In this document: one piece after another, positions 27,829 to 53,496 of the stretch
How the letters are laid out: each line of letters begins with the position of its first letter
Numbering within the stretch: position 1 is the first letter of the stretch
Source: Cenococcum geophilum 1.58
Lineage: Eukaryota; Ascomycota; Dothideomycetes; Gloniales; Gloniaceae
Length of the DNA: 64,000 bases
Assembly: GCA_001692895.1 (NCBI GenBank)
Contig: KV748219.1
Location: 186,001 to 250,000 of the forward strand
Direction of reading: 5' to 3'
Program-made: the position numbers and the translations under genes
Notes under the pieces: model-generated
The model's database searches: none
What the model saw: the letters and a program-made list of their open reading frames with translations, nothing else
Told to the model about the DNA's origin: nothing

Positions 27829-28048
27829 GCGAAGATATTAGTTCCGCTTACCGCTCTTAGCTGAGCCAATGACGATTTTCTATCCCGGGGATAGAAAATC
27901 CTAATTGGCTAGCTTAATAAATAGCGTCGGTAGAACTCCACACCACTACCTAAATTAATTAGGTGCGGCGCTTTTAGCAAAAATCTAACTAATTAAATAA
28001 CTTTAACCGGCGGTTAAAGTTCTATAAGATTTTAACTTCTTTAAATTT
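27829..28048 (-). repeat. palindrome-bearing 3' module next to Copia D, shared with Gypsy E
   Basis: Read on the minus strand: ACTTTAACCGCCGGTTAAAGT (a perfect inverted repeat), GAGTTCTACCGACG, then GATTTTCTATCCCCGGGAT running on into AGAAAATC (second inverted repeat), and GGAACTAATATCTTCGC. The same order occurs at 37652-37871 after the E polyprotein. Confidence 0.75.
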
Positions 28049-28105
28049 CCCTCTTAACCTAACCTTTAACTCGCATATATAAAGTATTTATATTAATAAA
28101 CATCT
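28049..28105 (-). pseudogene. Copia D, last codons of pol (displaced fragment)
   Basis: Reading minus from 28100, codons after the CATCT target site give a weak ILYICELKVRLRGKF-like tail, which continues the D polyprotein that stops abruptly at 44941 (...NLNKALE). The junction makes sense only if the 41166-44941 segment was inverted. Confidence 0.5.
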
Positions 28106-28374
28106 TGTTTATACCAATTTAATGATACAATTAAGTCGTATCCACGGGCACGAAATACATATAGTATTATATACTTATTTAGATAGTAACTGTCTCTTAT
28201 ATTAAAGCAGACTACGTAGTCTATATACTAATACGACCTCCCCCTAATTAGTTAGTGCTTCAGGGGTGCACTAGACGCGTAAGTAGGTAGTTAGTGCACC
28301 GAACGCGTAAATGCGTAGTTGGTGTACCGAACGCGTAAGCACGCGGTTAGTATAACAGGTGCTATAATTATACA
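28106..28374 (-). repeat. left LTR of Copia B
   Basis: Starts TGTTTATACC and ends TAATTATACA; 269 bp, collinear with the LTRs of A. Flanked on the left by CATCT (28101-28105). Confidence 0.9.
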
Positions 28375-28559
28375 CTAGCGGTACTTAAAAAAATAAAACC
28401 ACCTATATATAGCCTCTGTAATTGCTTTAATAGAACTATAAAATATATAAGAAATATATAAGAAATCCATAGGAGATCCCTCCTAAGGTGCCTTCTAGGC
28501 TGCCTTCTAGACGGTGCTTTAAGCTAGCCGTAAGTCCTGCTTACGGTCTGTAAAGTAAA

Positions 28560-31229
28560 CTATACGGCCTTCTAACGGGCTACAAATAAACCATAAGTGC
28601 TCCGTTAGTCACGTTCCACCTATTCTATAACCTTTAGATTAAGCTTATTTATATTAATTAGGGCTTTTAGAGCTTAACACGGTTTTACCTTAGTTATGGC
28701 GTCTACTAGGTTATCTCCACTACTAATCTATTTAACCTCCGTAATCTCACGTCGTTTATAGGCCTAATATAAGCACATTAGGTTAACTATAAGCCTCTTC
28801 TCCTATATTATACCTAGTTTAACTAGGTAGTTATAAAGGGACTTTAAATTAGTATATAAAACTAGGGGTAACTACTCTAGTTATAGAATCTTCTAGACCG
28901 TTAATTTAATTATAGCTGCTATATTAAATCTATAAGCTAGTGTATATAGTTTAAAAGCTAGTATACTGCGGGTTACTTATTTATACTTAATTAAGGACTA
29001 GTATAGTATATTTACGTCCTAATTACGGTCCGTAAGTACAATTATAAAGCTAATTTGTAATAATAGGTCTTTATTATTAGTAAAAGAGGCGTCTATAAAT
29101 GCTAATAAGCTAAAGAAATTTAGGTCTAGTAGTATAAAAGTAAGTCCCCTTGCTATATTATTAATTTGCCACTAAATGCGCTTATTAAGCTGTTTAATAT
29201 TTTCCTCTTATAGGTCTATTGCCTAGGCCGTAAAGGATAAATTATAGGCAGATTTAGGTTAACAGACTATGGCAATATAGGCGCCTCTTATACACTATGC
29301 AGCGTATTAGTCCTTTATATTTATAGTCTTATAAGTCTCTTTACGGGAACTAGTAAGGTCCGTAGGCTTTACTATAACAGGCTTTAGGTTTTAAGCTTGG
29401 CGTTCCTAAGTTAGCTTAATTAGGTTGCCCTTTTATATAATTAAGCCTCTATTAAACTTAATTAGAGTCTACTTAGTTAACTACTCTCGCGGCTTTACCA
29501 AGAACTTAGCCTTTTATAGTTTAGTTTCTTTAGCGTCTACAAAGGTCTAATCTACTAGGAAGAGGGTATTATCTATTTAGAGTCTAATAATACTAAGGCC
29601 GTTTAATAGGCTATATAGGAGGCAGGGGTTATAGGTTAACTATTCTATTTTAAGTTTACTAACGTAGTACTAGTAATATATTTTAAACCAATAGTTTCTA
29701 GCTTCTGGTACTCTATATAGGGGTTTTATAACCTATAAAATTATTCCTAGTTATAGGTTAAGTTCACGGGGTAGTTATATAAAGATATCCCTACTTAAGT
29801 AGGTATTAGACTGTATATAGGCTTATAAGATATCCCATAAATAAAGGGCTATAGGTATTGTTTGCTATAGCCCCGGCGTAAGTACAAGTATAATCCGTTA
29901 GCTAACTTATTAAATTATAGGTAATTATATAAGGACTAAGTTCTTTCCTTAGTCATTATAAGCTTATATAATAAGCCTTAATTTTTTAAAAGCTTTATTA
30001 GTACTAGGGTACTTAATTTTATTAATAAAGCGTAAGTTAAATATATAGACGCCTTATGGAATATCTCTCTCCGTTATAACTACAAAGACGCCCTTTTTAA
30101 GTAGTCTATTAATCTCTTTACGTCGTAAGTCCGTAAAAGGGGTTTCCTATACTAGAACTAATATATCTGTAAGCGGAGATTACCTTACAGGTATTCCTGC
30201 GAAGGTTAAGTAATTCTCTATTATAGGGTTTTTAGTTATAGGGTGTTTTTGGGGGCGTCCTTAACCGCACTTTATAGTAGGTTTTATAGGTTTAGTAGGT
30301 TTCTAGGGGACTTCTAGGGTAGGTAAGGATACTTCTAGTTTATCTAATTTAGTGGTTACTTTTAGTTTATCTAGTTTAGCAGTTACTTCTAGTTTATCTA
30401 GCTTAATGTTATAGGCGTTTTTAGGCTAAAAGTAGGGTTTTACGGACGTGCTTCTAAAGCTAGTTAGTCCGCTAGGAAGTTATATATAGTATGTTTCGTT
30501 TTCTATAGCTAGTAAATAGTAAGGTCTAGTTTACTTACCGCTTTTACGCTATATAAGGACTTTAGAATTAAGCGGGAGGTTATATACGAAGGTTATATTA
30601 GGTCCGTTATAGTAGTATAGGGCGTTATTAATAGTTTATTTAGCCCGTAACTTAACTATTTTAGCTATTGCCTTCTATATTATAGCTGCTCGTTCCATAA
30701 TAGATGGGGTAGAAGGGCCTAGGTTACTTATCCTTAGGTAGGCTCTATAGACCAAAAGGGTAGGTACTAGTCCGTTAGGGCTAGCAGTATTATTAATAGC
30801 TTTTACAGCCATCTATAGAGCTAGTTCCTTTTAGATATCCTTATATTTATCTCTAATAATCTAGTAAGCTCTCTATAAAGCTAGGTAAGCTTACTTAATA
30901 AGCCTAACAGACTAATACGCCTTAACTAGAACAGCTTTTGTTAATATAGCCATGGCTATAGTATACTACTAGAATTCCTTACTAATAAAGTTTTTACTAG
31001 CGTTATAGGTAATATACTTAGGAGATCCAACGTATATATTAATCTAGTAGGTCCGTAAAATATCCTAAGTGTGCTTTATAAATATATTTTATAACTAATG
31101 GGCGGCTTAGTAGCGGGTTGCCCTACTAATTATATATAGTATTAGGCTGCTGTTAATATATATAATGTCTATATATACTAAGTAATTAAAGTTAAGATCC
31201 TTATAAAGGGTAAACTTAAATTAGCCTAG
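28560..31229 (-). pseudogene. Copia B pol, C-terminal part (RT/RNase H)
   Basis: Minus-strand translation is the same as A's from the end of integrase through reverse transcriptase and RNase H, with many stops. The reading frame breaks at 31229 where Gypsy E is inserted and resumes at 38150. Confidence 0.85.
31225..31229. repeat. TSD CCTAG of Gypsy E (left copy)
   Basis: CCTAG here and at 38145-38149 flank E exactly. Confidence 0.9.
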
Positions 31230-31416
31230 TGTCACGGCACTGACCTGACGCATACTATTTTATACTATCTCGTACTATTCCCTACTATTAGCTAGCCCAC
31301 CACTAGCGACTTGGCGGCCGGCCCTACTATTTATATACAATACCCCCTTTCCACCTTCTTCCCCTCTTTATACCACAACGTAGTTATTCAGTCTACTTTA
31401 TTGCAGCACTATAACA
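31230..31416 (+). repeat. 5' LTR of Gypsy E
   Basis: 187 bp, TGTCACGGCACTGACC to GCAGCACTATAACA. Contains the TATTTATATACAATA box-like stretch. Confidence 0.92.
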
Positions 31417-31565
31417 GTTTGTAGTATCTTCAATTTACGCCCCATCGCGATCACTAATTCCCCGTACCCTAGCTAATTAACCTCCGCCCTAAAGCAATCG
31501 CAACCTACGCGCGCCTCTACTAAAACCAACACGTCCCCAGCACAGTCCTAGAACAATCCTTAGTT

Positions 31566-33160
31566 TTTACCTAGTACCTAGATGGGTAACACCAATGACG
31601 CCGAAATGGCCGAAACCTAGAACCCCCGCGACGTTTTCGCAGACCTATTTACAGAGACATACCCTAATATTACGTAGACAATCCGCCGCTCCCTACTATA
31701 CCCTAAGACCTTTAAGCCTAGCAAAGCTTACCTTACCCTTATTAACTATACTAATAAGTTCCTTAACAATATTAAAGCAGGACTATAGTGTATATATAAC
31801 ACAAACACCGCCAATAAGAAAGCTAACGAAAACCTTAGTGCCCTTATCGCTTCCTAAATAGGAACTATCAACTCCCAGGCAGAGACTATTACCATTCTAA
31901 AACAATTAACCCCTACAATAATAGTAGTAACCTAGCAGAAAAAACGGAGATCTAAAGACCCGCCAATATTCAGCGGAAAAGGCACCCCGCTAAAATAATA
32001 AGCTAATTTTAAGACCTAGCATATTAAGATCAAGGGAGTCTTCGACCGGGACTAGGACTACTTTAACATAGTTTAGTCCCAGATCCTTTATATCTTGGAT
32101 ATGCTAGAGGATAAGGCCTATAAGTTTATTAAGTAGGGCCTAGAGCTTATACACAAGAACCCAAACAACATATCTGCGTGGAAATGGCCTACTAAGGAAA
32201 ATATGCTTAAAGACCTTACTGCCCACTATAAGGTCCTCGACATAACCTAGGTTGCAAAGAATAAGCTTAACCATTTCCCCTAAGGCGAGCGTAATTACTA
32301 GTCTTAGAAGGGAGAGCTTAATAAGCTAATAGTCCGCGCTAAGAAGACAGACGAATAGAAGGTGGACCTACTCTAAAAGTTTATCTCTCTAAAGATAGAA
32401 GAGCTGGTACTTAGACTAGCCCACGAAATTAATAATAGCGACTATATAGGTTAGAGCAAGCAAATAGATATATTCGCTAAGAACCTCGCGAACTATACAC
32501 ACCAAGCCAACCTTAAGAAGAACGCTAACCACCGCCTACCTGCCTAAGCCCCTGCCCCTATATTAACCCTAACCCTAGTAGTAACTAAAGAACCTATAGA
32601 CCTTAATAGAATCTTAGACACGGAGCATAAGCGCCGCGTTAATAATAGACTATACCTTGCCTATAGCCTACCCGGCCATTAAAAGGATGCCTATAACCCC
32701 GCTAAGACAGTAAACCTAGTCCTAATACTATCCTATCAAACGACGTGAATAAATAACCGCGGACGCGGCGACCGTGGAGTCCATTATAGACGCGGCGACC
32801 GCGGAGCCTATTATAGCCGCGGCGGACGACCCCCCCCCTTTAACCCTACAGCTTAGTTACTCCAAACTATGCCCTATATAGGAGCCCAACCCGTTAATAA
32901 CGCCTAATATTGGCGACTTTGCGCTAGCGAATACGAACACAGCTATGTTATTAGCGAGGTATTGTCTTCCTATACCCTAACTAAAACAGAGACAGACACC
33001 GCCAGCCAGACGGACACTAGACCACCCCGCTAAGACAGCCCTATACCCTAGTCGTTAAAAGGTAGACCCTTAGACTAAGTTGCGCCTAAGGGTCTAAACC
33101 ATATAAGGAGGAAGACGAGAAGATTAGGTCCCTATTACTAGATTAATTAGTCCTTTCTAT
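31566..33160 (+). pseudogene. Gypsy E gag
   Basis: The plus-strand translation with stops at Gln/Trp codons has DPPIFSGKGTPLK, then FDRDxDYFNIVxSQI and LDMLEDKAYKFI, which is the capsid-like region of fungal Gypsy gags. The C-terminal part is basic and glycine-rich (NNRGRGDRGVHYRRGDRGAY), an RNA-binding tail in place of a clear zinc knuckle. Not translatable as it stands. Confidence 0.75.
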
Positions 33161-33169
33161 TAGTAAACT

Positions 33170-36100
33170 GCCACTTAATTTTAGATTAGCAAATAGTAAT
33201 AAGAAATCAATCCTTATTTAAACCTAACTCTCCTTATTATATAACCTATACCCCCAAGTTTATATTAATACAGTAAGCCTAGTGGACTCCAGTAGTACTA
33301 CAATGGCATTTACCGACGCAGAGTCTATTGTAAGAAAGTATAACGTTATAACTAAGAAGCTATTAGCACCTAGGCCACTGCGCCTCGCAGATAGCATCCC
33401 AACTTCGCTTATTACGGACTACTTCACTACCTAAATGTTAATCGGCCTCTATACTAAAGCTATGCTCTTTTTTATTACTAAACTCTTACCCGCTACCCCA
33501 ATTATCCTAGATATACCCTAGCTTCAGAAGTACGAGCCCTATCCTAGCTTTAGGAAACTCAAGATCCGCTTCGACTTAGACTACTACTCTAAGTACTGCC
33601 TCCCGTAGGGGATAGCCAACGTTAGTAGGGACGCCCTATATAGACACTTAGCACTACTAAGCCTAGTGCCTAGGACTATATATAAAGCCCTAATAGTAAA
33701 AGACGTTCCTAATAAAGGGGAGCCTATATAGCTGCAAAGAAACAAAACAGTGGAAGACTGGACTAACCCAGCACTTAAGACTAAAACGACAGGCTAGCCA
33801 GCCCTACCGAGACCAAGAAAGAAGGTCCGCTTCGCGCCGCCACTACTAAGAAACCAACCCCAACCTAGGCACTATTTAAACCCCGGCCGCCCAGCCTAAT
33901 ACCTAGAACTAAGCCATATACCATATACGCATACTACAGCTCGCGTTACAGCAAGGACTAGCTATGGAACTACTAAGACCTAGATAATAGAAACCGCGCC
34001 ACCGTAACGCCTAACCTCATACCTATCTCCCACGCGTACCGTATAGGGCCGCCGCCTCGTTTCCGCCCCCTTAGGCTAACTAAGCCGTGCTAGCCTAGCC
34101 GTAGCACCAGAGAGCCAGACACGCCCCAACCTAGACAATATTAAATGCACCTATGCTATTAATTTTACCTAGTTCTATAAGTAAAAAGACGTAAAGGTAA
34201 TAAGGATCTATATAGCAGAGCTAGTAGAACTAGTTAAATAAGATAAGCACCGACAGCTACTTAAAGAGCTACCTATAGGCCTAATAGAAGTACCGAACCT
34301 ATTAGAAAGGTCTTTCCGCCGGCTAGTAGAAGGCGACTATACAATAAAGGAAGCCCGTAAAGCGCTCCCCCCCTATTTCTATAACTTTCTTAAGATAAAT
34401 CTAAAAACTAAACCCAAGCTTTTACGTCGGAAGATAGTCGACACTAATATTAAAAAATTTCTAAAAGGCAAACCAGGATTAACCCGCAAAGACATTCTAC
34501 AACGCCTACTAAAGGAGTTTAGTAAATATATTAAGCACTTCCTCCTTAAAAACGTAGACAAGCTGCCCCCTTACCAACTATAGGACTATAAAATTAAGAT
34601 CACCCCCAGAAACCAGGCCCCGTACTATAAAAATAGACCACTCTTACCTACTAAACTTAGGTATATAAAGAAGTGGATTAATAAAATACTGGATAAGGGT
34701 TTTATCCGCGAATCGACCTCACTAACTACCGCACCACTTCTCCTCGCTACTAAGCCCGGCGGCGGTATACAAATCTACTATAACTACTAAGGCCTAAATA
34801 TAGTCACTATTAAGAATTAATACCCACTACCACTAATTCGTGAGACACTTGACGCACTTTATAGCGCCAAGTACTTTACTAAACTTAATATAATTACTGC
34901 GTTTAACCAGATCCGGATTATAAAGGGCTATAAGTAGCTTATAGCATTTATTACCTAGTTCGGACTCTATAAGATACTAGTTACACCATTCGGCCTCTAT
35001 AATACACCCGCTATATTCTAGAACTATATTAACTATATTCTATATAACGCCCTTAACAACTACTACACTACCTACCTTAATAACGTCCTTGTCTTTTCTA
35101 AAACACGCGCCGAGCACACTAAGTATATAAATAAAGTCATCCAAAAACTCGGCAATGCTGGACTTTAGATTAATATTAATAAGTTTAAGTTCTACTCTAC
35201 TAAAACAAAATACCTTAGCTTAATTATCTCAACTAATAGCATAACTATGGACCCTAAGAAGATACAGGCCTTATAGGAATAGAAGGACCTAACATTAATT
35301 AAAGAACTATAATAATTTCTCGGCTTCGCGAACTTCTACTAACAATTTATCTAAGGCTACTCTGCCATTACTATACTTATAACAAAACTTCTAAAGAAGG
35401 ATATCGGATAGCTATAGGGACTAGAATAAGCTAAATCGTTTAAGGCCCTTAAGGGAGCCTTTACTTCAGCACCAGTACTAGCATACTATAACTATATAAA
35501 GAAAACAGTAGTAGAGATAGATGTATCAAATTAAGCTTCCGGCGGAGTCCTTTCCCAGTACAATAATAACAGAAAATTAAGACTAGTTGCATTCTTCTTT
35601 GTAAAGCACTTTGCGCCGAAATATAACTATAAAATCTATAATAAAGAACTCCTAGCTATTATTAAGGCTTTAGAGAAATAGCGTCCTAAGCTATAAGGGA
35701 CTAAGAAGCCGTTTAAAATTATTACCGACTACAAAAACCTATAGACGTTTATAACTACTAAGCAGCTAAACTAGCGCTAAGTCTAATAGGCAGAGTTCCT
35801 TTTATAGTTTAACTTTATAATTATATACAGACCTAACAGCAAAGCTACGCTCCCTAACGCCCTAAGCCGGCTACTAGGAATAAAGCCTAAGGACGCTGAT
35901 AATAAACGCCTCTACCACTAAGCCTAAGTCGTTATACCGCCCTAGAAAGTTAACCCTATAATCTTAGAAGAATTACTATATAAGTCCCGTAACTCTAACG
36001 ACGCGGAGTTTATAGCCGCTCTAGACCCCAAAATAGCCGAAAAGTCACTAAACAAGTTAATCTAGCTAGGATACCAGGAGAACGAACTCACAAAAGATAT

Positions 36101-37650
36101 AGTGGCAGCCCTACGTAATTAGAAAGCTCGCTATTAGCCAAAGAAAATTAGGAAATTACTCTATTACAATAAGTCAGAATGCAGTATTATTAATAGATAG
36201 ATCTACTTCCGCCAACATCTCTTCGTCCCTAATACCCTAGACCTCTGCCTAGAAGTTACCCATCGCTCTTATAGCAGCGGCCCCACTAGTTACCCCAGCC
36301 AGGTTAAGACTCTTAACCTCTTAAACCAAATATACTAGTGGCTAGGAATCTCCCAGTTCACGGCTACCTTCGTTAAAAACTATACCCTATGCTTTCGCAC
36401 TAAGACCCCCTATTCTGCCCCACCCGGTTTCCTAAAGCCACTAGAATTACCCGCCCGCCTATAGACCGATATCTTAATTAACTATATCACAACGCTGCCA
36501 GTATACTAACGCTATAGTAAAGTATATAAACATATCCTTATTATTATAAACCGCCTAACTAAAATATAATACCTTGTTCTAGTAACAGGACTCTTAATAA
36601 AGGAGTTAGTTAATAGCTTTATTAACAATATATATAAGCTCTATAGTGCACTAAGCACAATTATCTCTAATCGCGGTATATAATTTATTAGCAACTTCTA
36701 GCGATAACTAAGTAAACGCCTTAAGATAACCTTATAACTAAGCTCAGCCTAGCACCTAGAAACGGACAGCTAAACTAAAATTATTAACGCCGCCGTAAAT
36801 AAATACCTTTATGCTTTTATTAGCTTTATATAGGACAACTGGGTTAACTACCTACCGCTCACCAAGTTTACTATAAATAACTAAGTCAACGAGAGCATAG
36901 GCATCTCCCCGTTTTTTATAAACTATGGCTTTAACCCTCGCCTTGGAATCAAGCCTACTGGCCCCTGCTTACTAACACTATCAGTATAAGCAAAGAAGGA
37001 GTTCTTCTGCGTAAACTCTATAGCTAACCGCTTTAAGCGGATATTAACATAGCTTAAGGCCCTAGCCTAGATTTTATAGCAACGCTATAAAGATAATGCT
37101 AATACCCGTAGGGATAAGAGCGCGTTATTCTATAAAGGTAATATAGTTATAGTTAGCTTAGAAAATATAAAGATAAATAGACCTAAGAAGAAATAGGACG
37201 ATAAATAGGACGGCCTGTACCCTATACTCGCAGTATACTAAGGGGCAGTCGTAGTAGACCTCCCAGACCACATCTAAGTAAATAAATCCTTTTATATATC
37301 TAAGGTCCGCCTCTAGGCTGCTAAAAAGATCCCTAGCTAAGCAAATATTAATACTATAGAGCGCCGTAATATATAAGGACGAGTGGTAGAGAGAGATAAT
37401 AACGGCAATATAGAAGACAAATAGGAGTTTAAGAAAATCCTCAATATATACAACAAAGACCCCTAGGGCCTAACTTATAAGATTAAATGGAAATATCATA
37501 AGGATATAACCTAGCAGCTAGAGGAAAACCTAAAGGGTTATAAACAAGCTGTATAGCGCTTCTATAAGCAACACTCTAAGAAGCTAGGACCCCCAAACTA
37601 GGCACAAGATAAGGAAAAGTCACGCCAAGGTCGCGGCCAACCACCGCATT
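33170..37650 (+). pseudogene. Gypsy E pol with C-terminal chromodomain
   Basis: Protease region VDSSSTTMAFTD; RT with [54 protein letters not shown]; the RT active site expected as YLDD reads YLNN (35073-35084); TLIKELQQFLGFANFY-like; RNase H VVEIDVSN and KIYNKELLAIIKALEK; integrase SGPTSYPS, TDILINYIT and ISPFFINYGFNPR; chromodomain EFKKILNIYNKDPxGLTYKI then KWKYHKDITxQLEENLK. Chromodomains steer integration to heterochromatin. Many stops, all of RIP type. Confidence 0.88.
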
Positions 37651-37651
37651 A

Positions 37652-37871
37652 AAATTTGTGGTGGTTAAGATATCATAAAACTTTAACCAGCAGTTAAAGT
37701 TATCTAATTAGCCAAATTCTCGCCAAGAAACGCCATACGGACCGATTTGGGTGGCGGTATAGAGTTCTACCGACCTTACTCACTAAACTAACCAATTAGG
37801 ATTTTCCATGCCCGGCATAGAAAATCGCTATTAGCTCGGTTAAGGGCAGTAAGCAGAACTAATATCTTTGC
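37652..37871 (+). repeat. palindrome-bearing 3' module of Gypsy E
   Basis: Follows the chromodomain stop. AACTTTAACCAGCAGTTAAAGTT is a near-perfect inverted repeat; GAGTTCTACCGACC and GATTTTCCATGCCCGGCAT continuing into AGAAAATC follow. Collinear with 27829-28048 (minus). Confidence 0.75.
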
Positions 37872-37957
37872 GGTAGAAAATAGGCAACCCTATATACTGC
37901 CTATTTTTAAGTTATCTATTCGGTTTGGGGACCAAACCGTCTAAGGGAAAGAAGTAC

Positions 37958-38144
37958 TGTCACGGCACTGACCTAACGCATACTATTTCATACTATCTCG
38001 TACTATTCCCTACTATTAGCTAGCCCACCACTAGCGACTTAGCGGCCGGCCCTACTATTTATATACAATACCCCCTTTCCACCTTCTTCCCCTCTTTATA
38101 CCACAACGTAGTTATTCAGTCTACTTCATTGCAGCACTGTAACA
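37958..38144 (+). repeat. 3' LTR of Gypsy E
   Basis: 187 bp, TGTCACGGCACTGACC to GCAGCACTGTAACA, followed by the TSD CCTAG. Confidence 0.92.
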
Positions 38145-38149
38145 CCTAG

Positions 38150-40490
38150 GGAACGTCTGTATTTCTGGCAGTAGGAGCAGTATTTAGTTAGGTGGTTAAT
38201 TGCCTTCCTATTAACGTTGTTATATCTAAAGTATTTAAGGACTCTATATAGCTTTTTGGCTAATAGGTAGCTAAAACAGTAGTATAGGCGGTGGATCTTA
38301 GTACTAATAAGGTAGTATAGGTTATAGTTAAAAAATTCCTAAATATAGGTCCGTAAGGTCTCTTCCTATATAAGGAACGGGTGTCTAAATTATTATATAA
38401 TTAGTAGGGTAATATACTTACTTCCTAGGGCAGTTACGGGGCTAATTAGGGTGTCCGTAATATTATTATAGTAAACCTATAACCTATCTATATCCGTAAG
38501 ACAGAGCAGAAAAGGAGTGTCTGCTTTTACTATATAGAAGTTAACTAGGCTAATTAGGGTCTTTACTATAACTAATTTAATTAATATAGTTAAGCTAATG
38601 CTAAATTAGACATTTATAGCCCTAGTTTACATAGTATTAATATCCGTATTATTATTTATAGTGGTCTTATATATAAGGTATTATCCGTAACCTATAGTAG
38701 ACTTCTTAAAGGTACCTATATTAATTATAACGCTATAGAATTCTTTAGCAGTATAGCGTTTTATAGTAATATATATAAATAGGTCCTATTTACGGTCCGT
38801 AACGTCTATAATAGGTCTAGCAGGTATACTTATAGGTTAGTTTTTAGGTGTAATTAAGTATATAAAGGAGCGGTTAGCTAATACGGTTATAATATTAAAA
38901 GCTTAGCCGTCTATAAAAGGTCTAAAAGTAGTTAGGAATGTTTCTAAGGTCTCCTATTCCTAAGTATTTAAATTAAAGTTAATTATAAGGGCTTCTATTA
39001 ACTTATTAGGAGGCTCCTCTTCTTCCTCTCCTTTATATTTTAAAATAAACTAGTTAATCCGGCTATTAAGTCTCTTCTTAAACTTATTATATTCTTCCTA
39101 GGTATACTTTATAGACTAATATTCTTCCTTACCGCATATAAAGCACTTCTGGCTAGTTTATTTATGGGGGTATACTTTTATATAGGGGTTGCTGCGGGGG
39201 TTATAGGTAGGACTTAGTTAGTGCGGGTACTACTAGCGATAGCGGCGGTCCGTAAAGTAGGCATCTAAGTTAGTTTATAAATTTTATAGGTCTGTAATAA
39301 AGGCTTAAGTACTGCCTAATAGGTTTAAGGCTTTATACATTACAATAGAGGACTATAAATTATTAATAAGGCCGGCTATAGTGTCTACAGGCTTATAATA
39401 GGCGTATTTATAGGGTTCTATTTCCTAGTAAGCTATAATAAGTTTATTATATAGGAAGTCGTCCGTTTAAAGCTTAATATTAAAACCGTACTATAGGTAG
39501 TAGAGGTCTTTAATAAGGATTTATAGGCACTCTATAGTTGATTTTTTAGTATTCTTATCTATTATAGTCCGTAACTTAGTTGTATTCTATTAGGTAAGGA
39601 TATTATATTTATATTCCGGTCCTTTAAAGTAGTTATATATAGCTTTATATAGCTTATTAAAAGGAACACTAAGGGGGTTACTCTTAAGGTTAGTATAATA
39701 GTAGTTAAGTACTAGGCCGCGTAGTATAGTAGAGTAGGCTTAGCTAAACTCTTATTTAGGAATATTAGCCTTTTAATAGAGGTCCGTAAAAATGGTTAGT
39801 TTAAAGTTAAAGTTATTATTTTTACCGCTATACTTAGATTCGTTAGTATAGAGCTTAGCTAGATTAGCTAGCTCCTTACTATAGGTCTTTACTTAGGTAG
39901 GTTACGGATCTATAACTTAGATAATAGTAAGAAGGTTTTAGTCTATATTTTAGTTTATAGGGGTATTATAGTTTATAATTTAGGTTATAGGGGTATTGCG
40001 GTCCGTAACCTAAGTACTAGGTATACTTTAGTCTATAAAATTAATTCTAAAACTGCTTAGGTTTATAGGATAAATTTAGTTAAGTAGGTTAGATATAAGG
40101 CTAGTAATCCCGTTAAGTTTAAAAGAAGTAAAGAGTTCTTTAGTGGCTTTAACCTAGTCTAGGATTTCCTCTTTAGTCTATTCTATTTAGTTCTTTTTGT
40201 ATAATATATTATATAAAGACTATATAATAGTAACTTATTTATCCTTCTTAACCTATATACCTTAGTAATATAAGAGGGTCTATAGATTGCGGATAGCTAT
40301 AAGGTTATAAGCCTTAAAGATAGCTTCCATAAAGTCTATAAAGTCTTCCTTATATTATTCCTATAGATTATTATTTAGGAGCTTAAAGTGTCCATATTTA
40401 AGGATTTTAAAATTAATATAGTTATTAATATTATCTATAGATATAAGGTTAACTCCCTAACTCTACTTCTTTTAACCTTCACTAACTTGC
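38150..40490 (-). pseudogene. Copia B gag, protease and integrase N-terminal part
   Basis: Collinear on the minus strand with A from about 9760 to 12110: gag, zinc-knuckle region, protease and HHCC integrase start. More mutated than A at several Cys codons. Confidence 0.85.
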
Positions 40491-40896
40491 TTACTAATAT
40501 CTGCTATACTATATAGTATGGTGTAGTATATAGCAAGTAGAAGAGGTCTTGTTATATTCTATAAAGGCGGTTAATAGGTCTATAACGGTTTATAAGAGGG
40601 TAAGAGGTCTCTATAAGGGGTCTAAAAAGAGGTTAGAGGTATTAAAAGGGAGTATAGTAGGGATAGGGGTTTAAGGTTTAAGGGTAAGGGGGTTTTATAA
40701 AGGTCTATATTCGCGTCTATAACTTCTAGTAAACTATACTAAGACTTAAATAAGTATATGGGGTTAGTAATAGGTCTATAATCCCCAACTTCTAACCTTC
40801 TAATAGGTTGTACTAGGATTAAACAGGTAGTTGCTATTAAGTATCGCTTAGGGGGGATATTAAGTAATTACTAATCTATGCGCGCTTACTAATTAG

Positions 40897-41165
40897 TATT
40901 TATACCAATTTAATAATATAATTAAGTTATATCTACGGGCATGAAATACATATAGTATCGTATACTTATTTAGATAGTGACTGTCTCTTGTATTAAAGTA
41001 GACTACGTGGTCTATATACTAATGCGACCTCCCCCTAATTAGTTAGTGCTTTAGGGGTGCACTAGACGCGTAAGTGGGTGGTTAGTGCACCGAACGCGTA
41101 AACGCGTAGTTAGTGTACCGAACGCGTAAGCACGCGGTTGGTATAACAGGTGCTATAATTATACA
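40897..41165 (-). repeat. right LTR of Copia B
   Basis: 269 bp, ends TAATTATACA at 41165, then ATAAC. The inner end reads TATTTATACC (TG to TA). Confidence 0.9.
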
Positions 41166-44100
41166 ATAACCTTACCCTCTTTAATTCTGTAAATACTTAT
41201 AAAGGAGTATATACTTAATTAAGATCCTCTATTAGCACCGCTTTACGTTCTTAAAAAGTATAGCAATTTAACGCTTAACCCTAATCTACTTTAATTAACC
41301 TAGATAATTAACATAACTATAACTGGACTAATTAAATATATCGCGGTAGGGGATATAGAAAAGGGTATAATTAACGTCGGCTATAAAGCAATTATAGAGG
41401 TTTATTTTAAAGTAATTGTTAAAAGAAGTGCTACGTTTATAAGAAGCCAAATTACTAGTTAATAAGGTACCCTCTTAATAGACAAAAAGAGGCATATAAT
41501 AAGTTTCGCTAAAGTATAAGAAACGTTGGAAACCGTAAGGTTACTACGGCCTACTTTTAAAGCTTTTTAGTTTAATATAAAGGTGTAGAAGATCTTAAGA
41601 GTAAGGTTAATAAGACTAAATAACTCCTTATAGATATAGAAATTAAGGACTACTCTCCCAACTAATACTTTACTAAGTATAGTAAGGTAGATAGCATACA
41701 AACTGTCGCTATTCTTAATAACTAATCTACGCTCTATTCTATTATAAAGTCAAATATCTTTAATAAGCCAAAGGAGAGTTCTACGTTCTTATTTAATAAT
41801 AGATACTTAGTAAACGTCTTCTATAGTATTATACTAAATACTAGAGCCGTAGGAGTATCTATAGTAGGAGAATGTTAAGTTCGAGCTCTTTAGCAGCTTA
41901 ATAGCTCTATTTAGATTAACTAATTAACGGCAGGCTAATATACAATTTGTTTTAGCAAGGGTATTATAGTCTCTCTCGGCATAATAAGGGTCTAAACCCC
42001 CTTAGGATATATTACCTTCTATATTATTCCCGCAAACACTTTATTTCTATTTTATATTAAAGATATAGATAAATTAGGCGTTAAGCTCGATAACCTTAAG
42101 AATATACTTATTTAGGGAGATAATTGGGTACCTATTATACGCAAATAGGGTTACCCCTAGTTACTCCTTTATTAACTAGAAAAGAGTATTACTTAAAGCC
42201 ACCTAACTAAGTTAGAGTTACGTTAACTACACCGTTATTTTGGCCACTTATCCGTTTACTAATTACTTAGGGTTCTTTAACAAGTAGGTTATAAAGTTAA
42301 GATTAAGGTAATTAAGCATCTTATAACTTGAAAATACTACTACTACTACTAAATAAACCAGAAGTCCCCTAGCCGATTTAAGTTTACCCTTAAAGATAAC
42401 TATAACTTTAACTTCTGCATTATTATTAACGTTATATATCTTAGCAGTAAGCCAGTACTGTAAGTTATTAACTTCTTAACCTCCTTCTAAGCCGTATATT
42501 TCTTAAAGGATATATTAGCTAGGAACGTATAGGATACTCTTTAATTATACTAGATTAATATCTACCTAGGACCCCCTAACTAAATCGTCTATAACGTAGG
42601 AAAGAACTTCTTATCTATAGAGTTTCGGCAATAGGCAAAGGCAACAGCAATTAAGGTTAAGGAAGTCCCTATTAAGGCATATAATAGTATTAGAAAAGTA
42701 AAGTAATATCATACGCTATTACGCCGTATATATAAAATTATTTCGTTAAAACTAAAGGGCGCTAGTAAAGAGCTCACCTTATAGATAGCTATTAAGGCTA
42801 TTAATAATTCCGCTAGCCTAGATAGGCTTATACTTACATTACTAGTCTTTAGCGCCTATCCTTAAATAACTAATAATTCTTTACTATCTCCCTCTATTAT
42901 ATAATAAGCTAAGGCTATTTATAAGGCAATAAAGGAGGTATAACGTCTCTACGCCACGCGCTAGGTTAACGACGTACTAGGAATAAGAAATGGCCTAAAT
43001 ACCTTAACTACGCTTAATCTGCCACTATAATCTAAGGTACGCGTATAGCGTGAAAAAGGAAAATAGTTAGGCCCACATAAACTCATTGCAATTAATGGTT
43101 AAACTTATACTATTTAGATGCCTTATAGACCCACTTAATTCCGTTTAACTGTTATTAAGCCCTATTATAAAGATGATAGTTCTAAGCCTTTACAGGATGC
43201 CCTAAAGGAGAACTATGATTAGCATGCCCTAGAAGGCAATTACAATCCTAATATAATTATAGTAGATATGCCGCAACTATAACGCGGTAGAGGTCGCCTA
43301 AAGGGATTATAAAATCGCTAACACCTTATTAATTTTAAAGAGTAATTTATTGCTACTATTAAGAGCAGAGTCGAGTTATTAATGGCCTTTATAATAGCTA
43401 AAGAGAAGGCTAACTTTAAGCTTATAAAACAGCTCTAAAAGAAAGGTCGTATTATAACTTTAGGAGCTCCTTTTTAAGCATCTAATAAGCAGGAGATTAA
43501 TAGTCTTATTATAAGAGGAGTCTTTAAATTTAAGAAGTATAACCCTGCTAAGTTTAATGGAGTTCGCACCTTTAAGTTAAGAATAGTTAATGAGATTAAG
43601 GGCAAAGCTACTAATACCCTATTTAAGAAATTAAGGCTTATTATCCAAGGTTATAATAATAATGGTAAGGAGGTAATCCTTATATAATCTCCTACGATTT
43701 AACGAGCTAGTTAGCGAGTTATTATTGCGCTAGCTCCCTCCTTAATAAAGAATAGAATAGCAGTTTATTTATAAGATATTACTTAAGCCTACACCTAATT
43801 AGAGACGCATCTTTAGCGCTTAATATTAGCATATCTTTTAGAGCAAATTCACTACTAATATCCTAAAGATATAATTATGGTTATCCTTAAGCCATTATAT
43901 GGAATCGCAGAGGCAGGAACCTATTAGTAGGCTACTTATAACAAGCACCATAAAGAGAAGCTTTTAATAACTACTTCTACATTTAATCCCTACTTCCTTA
44001 TTATAACTATAGGAACTCTATTTAGAATTGTCGGCATATAAACTAATAATATAATTATTTTAGGAGACGACTAATTCTTAGCCCTTAAAGAGGATAAGCT

Positions 44101-44941
44101 AGTAAAGGTAAACCTTATAGCAAAGCCAAAGGAAAAACTTAATTTAATAACACTATTACTCTTTAATAAATGCATCCTCTCCCTAAATAAGGATTCCATT
44201 GCTTTACGCCAGAAGGGTTAAGGTAAAAAGATTAATATTATTAACGTTAATTGTCTAAAGTAAGGATATGTAGAGTAACGCGCTTATAGAGCTTATATTA
44301 CTTCTATCTATTAACCTAAGGCTTTCTTTAATCTCTTTATTGCCGCCTAATACTAGAAACTAACTAAGGATAATATTCTTAACCTAAATAAGCGTCTTTT
44401 CTAGTAAATAAACTATCTTAATTGGGGACTACTTTACGTGCCTATTAATCTTCCTACCGCTAAGCTATTTATGTTTGTTAATAGATCGTTTATAAACAAT
44501 AAAGATTTTAGCTCCTAGCTAGGATATAAGATTATTATAGCAAATAAATTTACTAGAGAGAATAACTTTATAATCTACGGCAATCTTATTTATTAGAGCT
44601 TAACTAAGAGTAAATATGTTACTTAAAGCGTTTTAGCGTTAGAGATATATAAAATAGTTAGTAGAGTTAATATAGTAATTATAATTAGAACTACCCTTAA
44701 GATAATTATAGATTAACTTAAACTTCCCGTTATCCCTATAATCGTATACACTAACTTATATTCCCTCTATAAGTATTTAGTTAAGCTTAGTACTATAAAA
44801 GAGAAGCGCCTTATAATTAATATTATAGCATTTCGGCAGTCCTATAAGCGTTAAGAACTCTTTAAGATCTAATAAATTAATAGCTAAGATAACCTAGTAA
44901 ATATAATAATAAAGGCAAACCTAAATAAGGCACTAGAGATA
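41166..44941 (+). pseudogene. Copia family D gag-pol central part, inverted segment
   Basis: Plus-strand translation gives a Copia polyprotein different from A/B/C: gag end LTLFNSVNTYKGVY; protease ILNTRAVGVSIVGE; integrase with LHRYFGHLSVY-like then SPLADLSLPL (frame shifted) and LGPPN-type core; RT from GVRTFKLRIVNEIKGKA, KLRLIIQGYNNNGKE, YLQDITQAYTQLETHLQR, IMVILKPLYGIAEAGTY, then IQTNNIIILGDDQFLAL, where the catalytic pair reads NN; RNase H STLTKSKYVT-type, end NLNKALE at 44941. Flanks ATAAC and AGATA are target duplications of the neighbouring Copia insertions. The polyprotein continues on the minus strand at 51258-51486 and 53497 onward (N-terminal side) and below 28105 (C-terminal side). 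Confidence 0.85.
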
Positions 44942-45210
44942 TGTATAATTACAGCACCTATTATACTAACCGCGTGCTTACGCGTTCGGTACACCAACTA
45001 CGCGTTTACGCGTTCGGTGCACCAACCACCCACTTACGCGTTTAGTGCACCCCTAAAGCACTAACTAATTAGGGGGAGGTCACATTAGTATATAGACTAT
45101 ATAGTCTGCTTTAATATAAGAGACAGTTACTATCTAAATAAGTATATAATACTATATATATTTCGTGCCTATAGATATAACTTAATTATATTATTAAATT
45201 GGTATAGACA
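44942..45210 (+). repeat. 5' LTR of Copia C
   Basis: Starts TGTATAATTACAGCACC and ends GGTATAGACA; 269 bp. Includes the CGCGTTTACGCGTTCGGTGC-type repeats. Confidence 0.9.
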
Positions 45211-45619
45211 CTAATTAGTAAGCGCGTATAGATTAGCAATTACTTAATACCCCCCCTAAGCAATACTTAATAGCGACTACCCGTTTAATCCTAGTACAAC
45301 CTGCTAAAAGGTTAGAAGTTGGGAATTACGGACCTATTACTAACCCTATATACTTATTTAAGTCTTAGTATAGTTTATTAGAAGTTATAGATATAAATAT
45401 AGACCTTTATAGAACCCCCCTACCCTTAAACCTTAAACCCCTATCCTTACTATACTCCCTTTTAATACCTCTAACCTTTTTTCGGACCCCTTATAGAGAC
45501 TCTTTACCCTCCTATAAACCGTTATGGACCCGTTAACCGCCTTTATAGAATATAATAAGACCTCTTCTACTTACTATATACTATACTACACTATATAGTA
45601 TGGTAGATATTAGTAAGTA

Positions 45620-48600
45620 AGTTAGCGAAGGTTAAAAGAAGTAGAGTTAAGGAGTCGACCTTACGTTTATAGACGACGTTAACAACTATATTAATTTTAA
45701 AATCCTTAAATACAGACACTTTAAGCTCCTAAATAATAATTTATAGGAATAATATAAGGAAGACTTTGTAGACTTTATAGAAGCTATTTTTAAGGCTTAT
45801 AACCTTATAGCTATCTACAACCTATAGACCCTCTTATATTACTAAGGTATTGTCACGTAACTCGTATTGAGCTGTTCATTGATAAAATGGGTTGATTGAT
45901 TGATGATCTTGTCTTGAGGTTGATTGACCTTGGACCTAGGGCCCTCGGGCTAAGATAAAGAGGTTTACAATGCACGTGACTCGTGCACGGTCTACGCCAC
46001 TAGAGAATACAGGTTATCTAACAGGTATATAGGTTAAGAAGAATAAATAAGTTACTATTATATAGTCTTTATATAATATATTATATAAAGAGGACCAAAT
46101 AAAATAGACTAAAGAGGAAATCCTAAACTAGGTTAAAGCTATTAAAGAACTCTTTACTTCTTCTAAACTTAATAGGATTGCTAGCCTTATACCTAACCCA
46201 CTTAACTAAATTTATCCTATAAACTTAAGTAGTTTTAAAATTAATTTTACGGGCTAAAGTATACCTAGTACTTAGGTTACAGACCGTAATACCCCTATAA
46301 CCTAAATTATGGACTATAATACCCCCGTAAACTAAAATACGGATTAAAACCTTTTCGCCGTTATTTAAGTTATAGATCTACAACCTACCTAAGTAAAAAC
46401 CTACAGTAAGGAGCTAGCTAATCTAGCTAAGCTTTATACCGATAAATCTAAGTATAGCGGTAAAAATAATAACTTTAACTTTAAACTAACTATTTTTATA
46501 GACCTCTATTAGAAGGCTAATATTTTTAAATAGGAGTTTAGCTAAGCCTACTCTACTATACTGCGCGGCCTAGCACTTAACTACTACTACACTAACCTTA
46601 AGAGTAACCCCCTTAGTGTTCCCTTTAATAAGCTATATAAAGCCATATATAACTACTTTAAAGGACTAGAATATAAATATAATATCTTTACCTAATAGAA
46701 TACGACTAAGTTATAAACCGTAATAGATAAGAATACTAAAAAATCGACTATAAAGTGCCTATAAATCCTTATTAAAGACCTCTGCTACCTATAGCACGGT
46801 TTTAATATTAAGCTTTAAACGGACAACTTCCTATATAATAAACTTATTACGGCTTACTAGGAAATAGAACCCTATAAATACGCCTATTATAAGCCCGTAG
46901 ATACTATAGCCGGCCTTATTAATAATTTATAGTCCTCTATTATAATATATAAAGCCTTAAACCCGCTAGGTAGTACTTAAGCCTTTATTATAAACCTATA
47001 AAATTTATAAACTAACTTAGATGCCTACTTTATAAACCGCCGCTACCGCTAGTAGTACCTATACTAACTAAGTCCTACCTATAACCCCCGCAGCAACCCC
47101 TATATAAAAGTATACCCCTATAAATAAACTAGCTAGAAGTGCTTTATATACAGTAAGGAAGAATATTAGTCTATAAGGTATACCTAGGAAGAATATAATA
47201 AGTCTAAGAAGAGACTTAATAGCTAGATTAACTAGTTTATTTTAGAATATAAAGAAAAGGAAAAAGAGGAGCCTCCTAATAAGTTAATAGAAGCCCTTAT
47301 AATTAACTTTAATTTAAATACTTAGAAATAGGAGACCTTAGAAACATTCCTAACTACTTTTAGACCTTTTATAAATGGCTAAGCCTTTAATATTATAACC
47401 GTATTAGCCAACCGCTCCTTTATATACTTAGTTACACCTAAAAACTAACCTATAAGTACACCTATTAGACCTATTACAGACGTTACAGACCGTGAATAGG
47501 ACCTATTTACATATATTACTATAGAACGCTATACCGCTAAAGAATTCTATAGCGTTATAATTAATATAGGTGCCTCTAAGAAGTCTACTATAGGTTACGG
47601 ATAATATCTTGTATATAAGACCACTATAAATAATAATACGGATATTAATACTATACAAACTAGGGCCGTAAACGTCTAATTTGGCATCGGCTTAACTATA
47701 TTAATTAGATTAGTTGCAGTAAAGACCCTAATTAGCCTAGTTAACTTCCACGTAGTAAAAGCAGACACCCCTTTTCTACTCTGTTTTACGGATATAGATA
47801 GGTTATAAGTTTACTATAATAATATTACGGACACCCTAATTAGCCCTGTAACTACCCTAGGAAGTAAGTATATTACCCTACTAATTATATAACAATTTAG
47901 ACACCCGTTCCTTATATAGGGAGAGACCTTATAGACCTATATTTAGGAATCTTTTAACTATAACCTATGCTACCTTACTAGTACCGAGATCCACTACCTA
48001 TACTACTATTTCGGCTACTTATTAGCCGAAAAGCTATATAGAGTCCTTAAACGCTTTAGACACGACGATGTTAATAAGAAGGTAATTAACTACCTAACTA
48101 AATACTGCTCCTACTGCTAGAAATATAGACGTTCCCTAGGCCGATTTAAGTTTACCCTTTATAAGGATCTTAACTTTAATTACTTAGTGTATATAGATAT
48201 TATATATATTAATGGCAGTCTAGTACTATATATAATTAATAAGGCAACCCACTACTAAGCCGCCTATTAGTTGTAAAATATATTTATAAAGTATATTTAG
48301 GATATTTTATGGACCTGCTAGATTAATATATACATTAGACCTCCTAAGTATATTACCTATAACGCTAATAGGAACTTTATTAGTAAGGAATTCCAGTAAT
48401 ATACTATAGCTATAGCTATATTAACAAAAGCTGTTCTAGTTAAGGCGTATTAGTTTATTAGGCTTATTAAGTAAGCTTACTTAGCTTTATAGAAAGCTTA
48501 TTAAATCATTATAAACGAATATAAGAACATCTAAAAGGAACTAGCTCTACAGATAGCTATAAAAGCCGTTAATAATACCGCTAGCCCTAACGGACTAGTA

Positions 48601-50760
48601 CCTATCTTTTTAGTCTATGGAGCCTATTTAAGGATAAGTAACCTAGGCCCTCCTACCCCATCTATTATAGAATAAGCAGCTATAATATAGAAGGTAATAG
48701 CCGAAATAGTTAAGTTATAGGCTAAACAAACTATTAATAACGCCCTATATTACCGTAACGGACCTAATATAACCTTAGTATATAACCTCCCGCTTAATTC
48801 TAAAGTCCTTATATAGCGTAAAAGCGGTAAGTAGACTAGACCTTACTATTTACTAGCTGTAGAAAATAAAATATGCTATATATAACTTCCTAGCGGACTA
48901 ACTAGCTTTAGAAGCACGTTTATAAAACCCTACTTTTAGCCTAAAAACGCCCATAACGTTAAGCTAGATAAACTAGAAGTAACTACTAAACTAGATAAAC
49001 TAAAAGTAACTACTAAATTAGATAAACTGGAAGCACCCTTGCCTACCTTAGAAGTCCCCTAGAAACCTACTAAACTAATAAAACCTACTATAAAGCGCAG
49101 TTAAGGACGCCCTTAAAAATACCCTATAACTAAGAACCCCGTAATAAAGAATTACCTAACCTCTATAGGAATACCCGCAAGGTAATCTCTGCCTATAAAT
49201 ATATTAGTTTTAGTATAGGAAACCCCTTTTACGGACTTATAATATAAAAAGATTAACGGACTACTTAAAAAGGGCGTCTTTGCGGTTATAACGGAGAGAG
49301 ACGTTCCGTAAGGCGTCCGTATATTTAACTTACGCTTTATTAATAAGATTAAGCACCCTAATACTAATAAAGCTTTTAAAAATTAAGGCTTATTATATAA
49401 GCCTATAACGATTAAGGAAAGGACTTAGTCCTTATATAATTACCTATAATTTAACGAGTTAGCTAATAGATTATACTTATACTTACGCCGGGGCTATAGT
49501 AAATAATACCCGTAGCCCTTTATTTATGGGATATCTTATAAGCTTATATATAGTCTAATACCTACCTAAGTAGGGATATCTTTATATAACTACCCCGTGA
49601 ACTTAACCTATAACTAGAAATAATTCTATAGGTTATAAAACCCCTATATAGAGTACCGGAAGCTAGAAACCATTAGTTTAAAATATACTACTAGCACCAC
49701 ATTAGTAAACTTAAAATGGAATAGTTAACCTACAACCCCTACCTCCTATATAGCCTATTAAACGGCCTTAGTATTATTAGACTCTAAATAGATAATACCC
49801 TCTTCCTAGTGGACTAGACCTTTATGGACGCTAAAGAAACTAAACTATAAAAGGCTAAGTTTTTAGTAAAGCTGTAAAAGTAGTTAACTAAGTAAACTCT
49901 AATTAAGTTTAATAGAGGCTTAATTATATAAAAGGGTAACCTAATTAAGCTAACCTAGGAACGCTAAGCTTAAAGCCTAAAGCTTATTATAGTAAAGCCT
50001 ATAGACCTTACTAGTTCCTATAGAGAAACCCGTAAGACTGTAAATATAAAGGACTAATACGCTATATAGCGTGCAAGAGGCGCCTATATTACTATAGTCT
50101 GTTAACCTAAATCTGCCTATAATTTATCCTTTATAGCCTAGGCAACAGACCTATAAAAGGAAAATATTAAATAGCTTAATAAGTGTATTTAGTAGCAAAT
50201 TAATAATATAGTAAGGGGACTTACTTTTATACCACTAGACCTAAATTCCCTTAGCTTACTAGCATTTATAGACGCCTTTTTTGCTAATAATAAAGACCTA
50301 TTATTATAAATTGGCTTTATAATTATACTTACGGACCATAATTAGGACGTAAATATACTATACTAGTCCTTAATTAAGTGCAAATAAATAACCTGTAGTA
50401 TACTAGCTTCTAAACTATATATACTAGCTTATAGATTTAATATAGCAGCCGCAATCAAATTAATGGTCTAGAAGATTCTATAACTAAAGTAGTTACCCCT
50501 AGTTTTATACACTAATTTAAAGTCCCTTTACAACTACCTAGTTAAACTAGGTATAATATAGAAGAAGAGGCTTATAGTCAACCTAATATGCTTATATTAG
50601 GCCTATAAATAACGTGAGATTATAGAGGTTAAATGGATTAGCAGCGGAGACAACCTAGCGGACGCTATAACTAAGGTAAAACTGTATTAAGCTCTAAAAG
50701 CCCTAATTAATATAAATAAGCTTAATCTAAAGGTTATAGAATAGGTGGAACGTAACTAAC
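45620..50760 (+). pseudogene. Copia C gag-pol polyprotein
   Basis: Plus-strand translation matches A: LTFIDDVNNYINFKILKYRH at the gag start, YFKGLEYKYNIFT-like, protease NIGASKKSTIGYG, integrase CSYC, SLGRFKFTLYKDLNFNYLV, RT and RNase H ending LADAITKVKLY. Split by the solo LTR at 45851-46023 in gag, and carrying dozens of TAG/TAA. Inactive. Confidence 0.88.
45851..46023 (+). mobile_element. solo LTR with TSD GGTAT, little affected by RIP
   Basis: 173 bp, TGTCACGTAACTCG to TATCTAACA, flanked by GGTAT at 45846-45850 and 46024-46028. A and B carry the uninterrupted target sequence. TG...CA ends plus a 5-bp TSD identify an LTR left after recombination of a full element. Its base composition is normal (GGGCCCTCGGGC, CACGTGACTCGTGCACGG), in contrast to its host. 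No full relative is in the window. Confidence 0.88.
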
Positions 50761-50988
50761 GGAGCACTTATGGTTTATTTGCGGCCCGTTAAAAGGCCGT
50801 ATAGTTTACTTTACGGACTATAAGCAGGACTTACGGCCAGCTTAAAGCACCATCTAAAAGGCAGCCTAGAAGGCACCTTAGGAGGGATCTCCTATAGATT
50901 TCTTATATATTTCTTTTATATTTTATAGTTCTATTAGAGCAATTACGGAGGCTATATATAGGTGGTTTCATTTTTTAAGTACCGCTAG

Positions 50989-51257
50989 TGTATAATTACA
51001 GCACCTGTTATACTAACCGCGTACTTACGCGTTCGGTACACCAACTACGCGTTTACGCGTTTAGTGCACTAACCACCCACTTACGTGTCTAGTGCACCCC
51101 TAAAGCACTAACTAATTAGGGGGAGGTCGCATCAGTATATAGACTACGTAGTCTGCTTCAATATAAGAAACAGTCACCATCTAAATAAGTATACGATACT
51201 ATATGTATTTCGTGCCCGTGGATACAACTCAATTATATCATTAAATTGGTACAAACA
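50989..51257 (+). repeat. 3' LTR of Copia C
   Basis: Starts TGTATAATTACAGCACC and ends GGTACAAACA; 269 bp, followed by GTTAT. Confidence 0.9.
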
Positions 51258-51486
51258 GTTATATTTTTTAACACCTTAGCATGCGCTAATAACTTAATCG
51301 CGTAGGCTAAAATCCTCTTAATATAATTTGGATAAACTACGTTAAATTATCTAAAGTTAATTAAAGAGCTTTTAAAGATAATTGAGCTAAGAAATACCTA
51401 GGTTTATAGCAATAATCCATAAAAAGGTAGTCTCTCTCTACTCCAATATATACTATTGCTTATTCTCTTCTATTTTAAAGTGGTAT
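51258..51486 (-). pseudogene. Copia D gag, internal fragment
   Basis: Minus-strand translation YHFKIEENKQQYILEQRETT, then INLGISQLNYL and SLRDxVISACQGVKKYN. It joins upstream to the D gag at 53497 (after removing F) and downstream, across the Copia insertion, to LTLFNSVNTYKGVY at 41171. Confidence 0.75.
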
Positions 51487-51632
51487 TGTTGGAATCACAG
51501 GGGGGGGTTTTGGTTTCAATCGTTTTCTCTTTTTTCTTCTTTCTACTTCTACAGGTGAAATTTAATGGATCTCCTAAGCTCGCTTAGCTTACGTAATTGA
51601 CCCAATTAGTTACAAGCAACCGTATTTAGATA
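51487..51632 (-). repeat. LTR (3' in coding sense) of element F
   Basis: Starts TGTTGGAATCACAG and ends GTATTTAGATA; the coding-strand 5' end therefore reads TATCTAAATAC, TG changed to TA. Contains a pyrimidine tract TTTTCTCTTTTTTCTTCTTT. Confidence 0.8.
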
Positions 51633-51689
51633 CTGGCAACAACTAGGAAATAAGAAAAGAAAGGGGTACTAGTAAATAAGTCCGTAGTC

Positions 51690-53120
51690 TCTATTCCTGT
51701 TCCCTTATAAATTCGGTCTAAAACGCCTCTACCTTAGGGTCGTCGTGATAACTAGAATAGGGTTCTATATCGAGATAGAAGTTAGAAGCTCCGTAATCTT
51801 CGTTATTATCCTTAGTATTGCCGTTACTGCCCTTAAAATCGGAGATATATTAACGTATTCTTCGGTCCCTTTTATCCTTTATATGGTTTATAGACCAATA
51901 ACCAGGTTTACTACATATAAAGCACTTTTTACCCTTATTACGGTATTAACGGTTAGAGGGGGGGTATCGTTGGTTAGAGGGGTGGTATCGTCGGTCAGTA
52001 TAGAATGATTTAATCTCTTGTTCTTGTTTACCGTACGTTGCGATTAAGGATTTAATGTCACTAATAAGGCCGGCAAGGGTAGTAGCAGGTTAAAAACAGG
52101 CTGGTTTACAAGCTAATACATCTTAGCACATAGTAAGGAGCTTATTATAAAATATCGTATCATTTTAAAGGTCCTTTGCTAGCCCGCGTTGTAGCTACCA
52201 CATCTCGTCGATTAATATCTAAAATGCTTGGCCTGTATTAAGTCCCTTTTTAAGCAGTAACTTATTTAAGCGTAATCGCATTCCACCTTAATAAGATATT
52301 ACGTTTGTATTCATCGCCTTTAAAGTATAATTTAAGGCCTATATATACATTTTCGAGAAGGTTGAGATCCTTAAGGTAGGTAAAGTAGTATTTAAGAGCA
52401 AGCCCGCGGAGCATAGTTAGGATAGCAATGATATACGCTTGCTTGGGGACGCCGGCTTAAAGGCAGTAGTTTTGGAAAATCTTAAACTTAAAATCGAAGT
52501 TGTCTTATTTACTAAAGTATTTAACTTCATCCGTATAGAACTTAGTTAAGTTAGTAATCTCCCTTCTAAAGTTTCCTTGTAGGGCGAGCTGGTCTATAGC
52601 TTAGGTAATTGATGGCTAAATAATTTAAACAGGGGCAGTCGATAGTGATGGTAGAGCTAGGGTAGGGTCGTTGGTAGGGTCGTCGGTAGGGTCGTCAGTA
52701 GGGTCGTCAGTAGGGTCGTCAGTAGGGTCGTCAGTAGGGTCGTTAGTAGGGTCATCGGTAGGCCATTTTAAGGGAGTTAGTTCGTGAATAACTCCTAAAA
52801 GACCGTCTGTAATTGACTTCCTTGCCTCCTTCCGTACGTATACGCCATTTTCGCGGAGGTAATCCCTAATCTTTTTTAATCGATCCTTGCTAAGGTCATT
52901 AAGTATATCCCTTGTAAACGACTCGAAATTGTTAATAAAGCTCTCCTATAAGTCGAATCTCTTCCATCCATTCTCCTTGTATATTGATAAACGCCAATTA
53001 ACGAATGCTTTAACTTCCTTAATGTCGGTTACGGTCGCGTCGATTCTAGTCTCCTATTTTTTAGTATTTATCGCGGAGGTAGCCATCGCGTCAGTATTTG
53101 TTGCGAAGGTAGCCATCTTT
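51690..53120 (-). pseudogene. element F gag
   Basis: On the minus strand: DDPTDDPT repeats (about 9, from a 12-bp unit, near 52665-52765), then KIFQNYCLQAGVPKQAYIIA, LTMLRGLALKYYF, LKLYFKGDEYKRNILL, GLAKDLQNDTIFYNKLL, ATTLAGLISDIKSLIATYG, and a zinc knuckle CFICSKPGYWSINH. The order and several motifs (RGLALxYY, YFKGxxYKRNIL, FYNKL, AGLI) match the gag of Copia A, so F is a relative reduced to gag. The gag shell would need enzymes from another element. Start codon not determined; open stretches on plus are shadows. Confidence 0.78.
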
Positions 53121-53491: not shown

Positions 53492-53496
53492 GGTAT

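Follow-up and report, generated by a model that had tools for sequence, protein, structure and literature searches.

How could two retrotransposons of one family, lying in opposite orientations within a third element, come to carry target-site duplications that fail to match within each copy but match between the copies? The locus that raises this question lies in Cenococcum geophilum 1.58, in a window of 64,000 nucleotides (positions 186001-250000 of contig C44), and we analyzed it against the genome from which it comes (177 Mb in 162 contigs). An earlier note on the window had proposed that recombination between the two opposed copies inverted the segment between them. In what follows, we describe the nest of elements, the sequences at its junctions, the arrangement of the host element elsewhere in the genome and the mutational history of the copies, and we weigh this proposal against three other ways in which the present order could have arisen.

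Results

Anatomy of the nest

The nest extends over 27.6 kb and is enclosed by a single LTR retrotransposon, D (27524..55087, minus strand), which hosts all the later insertions and whose bounds are supported by its target-site duplication and by the order of its pieces in its relatives. The LTRs of D, 173 bp each, lie at 27524-27696 and 54915-55087, and the duplication ATACT flanks them exactly (27519-27523 and 55088-55092). This duplication is preserved on either side of the nest, so that the rearrangement lies wholly within D. Within D lie two near full-length, opposed copies of one family: B (28106..41165, minus strand) and C (44942..51257, plus strand, with 51257 as its terminus). A third copy of this family, A (6652..12776, minus strand), is located outside D; the strand of B follows from a minus-strand coding frame that was read in A, which has the same orientation. 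Between B and C lies a segment of D, here called M (41166..44941), of 3,776 bp and now read on the plus strand, whose inversion is supported by the relatives of D, the flanks and the reading frame. A single run of N occurs in the window (13603-14170), and there is none within 27524-55087.

B is interrupted by a 6.9-kb LTR element, F (31230..38144, strand not given), and C by a 173-bp solo LTR (45851..46023, strand likewise not given, bounds taken from the bases); neither insertion figures in the earlier note. The part of D to the right of C contains a further element, E (51487..53491, minus strand), of 2.0 kb with LTRs of about 140 bp, whose bounds were also taken from the bases, with its left duplication at 51482-51486 immediately before TGTTGG. 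E matches many other places in the genome; by eye, it contains a zinc-knuckle-like stretch of gag, and it resembles a non-autonomous LTR element with gag only. A solo LTR 90% similar to the one in C is present at a different site in a further member of the family to which C belongs (L049:5163-5333, contig C76). Elsewhere in the window, positions 12827-15979 hold arrays of 96-base tandem units with strong GC skew, between or within which the run of N falls, and positions 21116-22735 form a G+C-richer stretch in which a unit of 126 bases is repeated in tandem about 13 times, a unit size that may be reminiscent of WD40-type repeats.

A, B, C and D are LTR retrotransposons, with terminal direct repeats and 5-bp target-site duplications, the latter in the case of B and C only crosswise. 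The assignment of A, B, C and D to the Copia superfamily would follow from the order of putative domains read by eye in A, where the integrase appears to precede the reverse transcriptase. Pfam scans of the elements returned no domain over the cut-off, Integrase_H2C2 (E 0.007) and rve (E 0.13) falling short of it, and the pieces scanned, which came from A, M and the loci L012, L016 and L049, had no match to RVT_2. A genome search for RVT_2 placed none in the window among the best 150 of 910 candidates scored, and a PDB sequence search with one piece gave no match.

Target-site duplications match crosswise

The mismatch within each element and the match between elements, reported in the earlier note, can be read directly from the bases. 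B is flanked by CATCT (28101-28105) and ATAAC (41166-41170), and C by AGATA (44937-44941) and GTTAT (51258-51262). The same note held that inverting 41166-44941 restores both duplications, one of them with a single change, and the bases agree: ATAAC is the exact reverse complement of GTTAT, and the reverse complement of AGATA, TATCT, differs from CATCT by one C/T transition. When 5-mers were drawn at random from the sequence of D itself, one exact and one at most one-transition cross-match arose together in 10 of 200,000 draws. The other five insertions examined, which serve as controls, all have exact 5-bp duplications: copy A, as had been noted, with CTATT on both sides, D with ATACT, F with CCTAG, and both E and the solo LTR with GGTAT.

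Relatives of the host element retain the uninverted order

It was other copies of D that provided the decisive test of the inversion. With 41171-44936 as a query for M, and 40 of 2,125 candidates scored, the matches listed fell at 43 genomic places, counting the one in the window; identity at the others was 82-89%. The 19 best matches besides the window's own (L010-L028) were cut out with 1.5-kb flanks and mapped back to the window; they represent other copies of D in the same genome rather than the same locus in another strain. Wherever their parts match, they have a sequence like 51486-51258 in reverse, then M in forward orientation, then a sequence like that from 28105 downward, also in reverse. 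Denoting the outer parts R and L, respectively, the join M|L that an inversion of M would restore is covered by one gapless alignment in all 19 relatives (84-93% identity), and the restored join R|M in 14 of them (85-92%). The remaining five (L019, L022, L025, L026 and L027) match closely only from 135 bases into M, and two of these, L022 and L026, have a weak gapless match (69-71%) that spans the restored R|M join. The match to M and the match to L, obtained in separate searches, abut at adjacent bases in the copies of contigs C53, C55 and C83. The uninverted order, which the earlier note had suggested looking for in relatives, is thus present, whereas a relative of D in the present order, named there as one observation that would speak against an inversion, was encountered in none of the 19, with no alignment extending more than 9 bases beyond a present-order join.

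In the relatives that align across them, the restored joins contain a single copy of the 5-mer, mostly AGACG at M|L and mostly ATAAC, ACAAC, GCAAC or GTAAC at R|M, as expected for unoccupied targets. The reading frame of D also reconnects, in agreement with the earlier note: when short flanks are joined, a frame continues across R|M and likewise across M|L, in the former case with one stop at a position where that note had a Q. The observations on the flanks and the reading frame are confirmed, and an inversion of the D segment between B and C is well supported by these comparisons.

RIP-type divergence of A, B and C

A, B and C are RIP-mutated repeats, with an excess of C-to-T and G-to-A changes and hardly any transversions. 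Any two of them are unlike at about 9% of positions, but no more than 4 of about 6,120 columns in the alignment contain a transversion; between B and C, in particular, there are 525 differences in 6,138 aligned positions (91.5% identity), and their longest identical run is 69 bp. The six LTRs of the three copies (269 bp) differ by transitions exclusively, with no transversion or indel. CpA was changed in 41-62% of sites and CpG in 29-35%, compared to 2-10% for CpC and CpT; the exception is the G-to-A side of A, where CpA and CpG were both changed in 22%. Hence, the context is not CpA alone, CpG being raised as well. A mutation pattern of the RIP type suggests a filamentous ascomycete.

The RIP-type changes of B and C seem to have arisen almost independently, although a slight excess of shared G-to-A changes is possible. 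For C-to-T changes shared by B and C the odds ratios are 0.9-1.1, and for G-to-A changes 1.2 (CpA), 1.6 (CpG) and 1.8 (both pooled), as against 0.4-1.0 for the pairs A-B and A-C, all of them rough values in that changes common to all three copies are invisible. The alignment of A and C includes one identical run of 105 bp, longer than would arise from most random placements of as many differences (simulated P 0.013).

In the searches for further copies of the family, the best 22 of 3,734 and 40 of 1,598 candidates were scored, and five other copies (L006, L008 and L049-L051) were compared with A, B and C base by base. The long stretches L049-L051 exhibit 17-71 transversions against A, B or C in 3.0-5.1 kb of alignment. 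From these comparisons, A, B and C, three sister copies within 45 kb that are near-identical apart from transitions, appear far more closely related to each other than to the other copies examined.

Search for a putative site of exchange

The RIP-type changes determine what can be seen of an exchange within B and C. The earlier note had recommended aligning both copies to A and looking for a switch of private variants; since the three differ almost exclusively by C/T and G/A changes of the RIP type, such a comparison has no power, and it yielded four transversion columns and a few indels, none of which labels the original copies. The pairing of LTRs is affected in the same way, as the six LTRs differ by transitions only: the differences (B5-B3 20, B5-C3 21, B3-C5 21, C5-C3 26) favor neither the swapped nor the unswapped pairing. 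Neither the load of RIP nor its strand bias switches anywhere along the two copies, and we found no B-C conversion tract, the longest shared run of 69 bp being as long as expected at random. An attempt to date the inversion relative to RIP by strand bias in D gave no consistent bias, with a single usable relative for one segment. The crossover point cannot be mapped from the differences among A, B and C.

Discussion

The account that we consider very probable is that a crossover between B and C inverted 3.8 kb of D. According to this scenario, D would be an old LTR retrotransposon into which B and C were inserted at sites 3.8 kb from each other, in opposite orientations. Acting as inverted repeats of 6.1 kb, the two copies would then have undergone a crossover that turned around the intervening 3.8 kb of D, such that each present copy would consist of part of B and part of C and would be bordered by a half from each of the two original target-site duplications. 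The crossover would have followed the insertions closely, when most of the RIP-type changes that made B and C 8.5% different were still to come. Divergence at this level hinders homologous recombination, which is why the exchange probably preceded most of these changes. Of the original claim, the inversion stands, supported by the flanks, the relatives and the intact outer duplication of D; we infer homologous recombination between B and C as its agent from the presence of two opposed homologous copies at both ends, as such a crossover requires. The points that count against the scenario are the negative results of the search for chimerism in B and C (no marker that labels the original copies, LTR distances that support neither pairing, no switch of RIP load or strand bias, no unusually long shared run), the one duplication pair that is off by one base and the five of 19 relatives that lack a close match across R|M.

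An error of assembly is the first alternative to be considered. Inverted repeats a few kilobases apart are a usual setting for an assembler to switch from one copy to the other, and a switch between B and C on an uninverted chromosome would yield the same crosswise flanks. However, B and C have 525 differences and no identical run longer than 69 bp, and there is a 6.9-kb insert in the one and a 173-bp insert in the other. Moreover, C44 is 1.5 Mb long and the nest contains no run of N, which suggests a long-read assembly. We therefore regard such an artefact as unlikely.

Alternatively, the inversion could have been made at integration, if two sister cDNAs had entered D simultaneously and exchanged ends, each of them bridging both sites. 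The same crosswise duplications would then have arisen with no later recombination, and the occurrence of three sister copies within 45 kb, near-identical bar their RIP-type changes, suggests a single burst, which leaves room for this possibility. Inversions of host DNA can accompany retroviral integration in which one end is faulty, according to the part of a study that deals with such events (PMC5041404). On the other hand, two coordinated aberrant integrations would be needed, with 5-bp staggers at both sites, while the aberrant duplications of HIV described in the same part of that study are usually much larger than a short 5-bp repeat (PMC5041404). The opposed orientation of B and C would also be just one of two outcomes of such an integration, but it is required by the crossover. 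If this reading were true, retrotransposition and not later recombination would have made an inversion with crosswise 5-bp duplications; we consider it very unlikely. Finally, that the present order is a natural variant of D and the flanks match by chance is hardly credible, as this order occurs in none of the 19 relatives, the flank match was reached in 10 of 200,000 draws, and we found nothing in favor of it.

A crossover between opposed copies has well-described counterparts. In the Galileo inversions of Drosophila buzzatii, exchanged target-site duplications at opposed copies are taken as a sign of this mechanism, in the sections of that report that concern the breakpoints (PMC2775673). 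As described there, opposed copies with exchanged duplications lie at both breakpoints, and each target sequence occurs once in the uninverted arrangement, in both respects as in C. geophilum (PMC2775673). The differences, as far as the same sections go, are that Galileo is a cut-and-paste DNA transposon that mediated a chromosomal inversion, whereas here LTR retrotransposons border a 3.8-kb segment inside another retrotransposon, and that both Galileo copies are reported to be chimeric, whereas here RIP-type mutation would mask any chimerism (PMC2775673). For inverted Ty1 pairs in yeast, inversion of the intervening segment is given as an outcome of crossover in the relevant portion of the text (PMC9879454). 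These, too, are LTR retrotransposons inverted on one arm; unlike here, the breaks were made by Cas9, and the four isolates that this portion presents in detail include no event between same-arm inverted repeats (PMC9879454). The description of REANNOTATE, in its remarks on this subject, points out that recombination between LTRs of different elements of the same family can leave the structure of a copy unaltered, and proposes to detect it from LTRs that fail to pair with the other LTR of their own element (PMC2672092), a test that lacks power in the present case because the six LTRs differ by transitions only.

The mechanism is thus already known, and the case cleanly illustrates a familiar type of rearrangement. 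It adds to the inversions of this type one with LTR retrotransposons nested in an LTR retrotransposon, and we do not claim priority in fungi. What it offers is a small, well-resolved case, in which the crosswise duplications, the relatives of the host element and the intact outer duplication agree on an inversion among nested retrotransposons. Where RIP has acted, chimeric copies and LTR pairing can lack power as indicators of exchange, yet the flanks and the relatives of the host element still work. At the same time, RIP provides a rough clock: it has made the repeats too different to recombine easily, and the exchange between them was probably an early event in the history of this nest.
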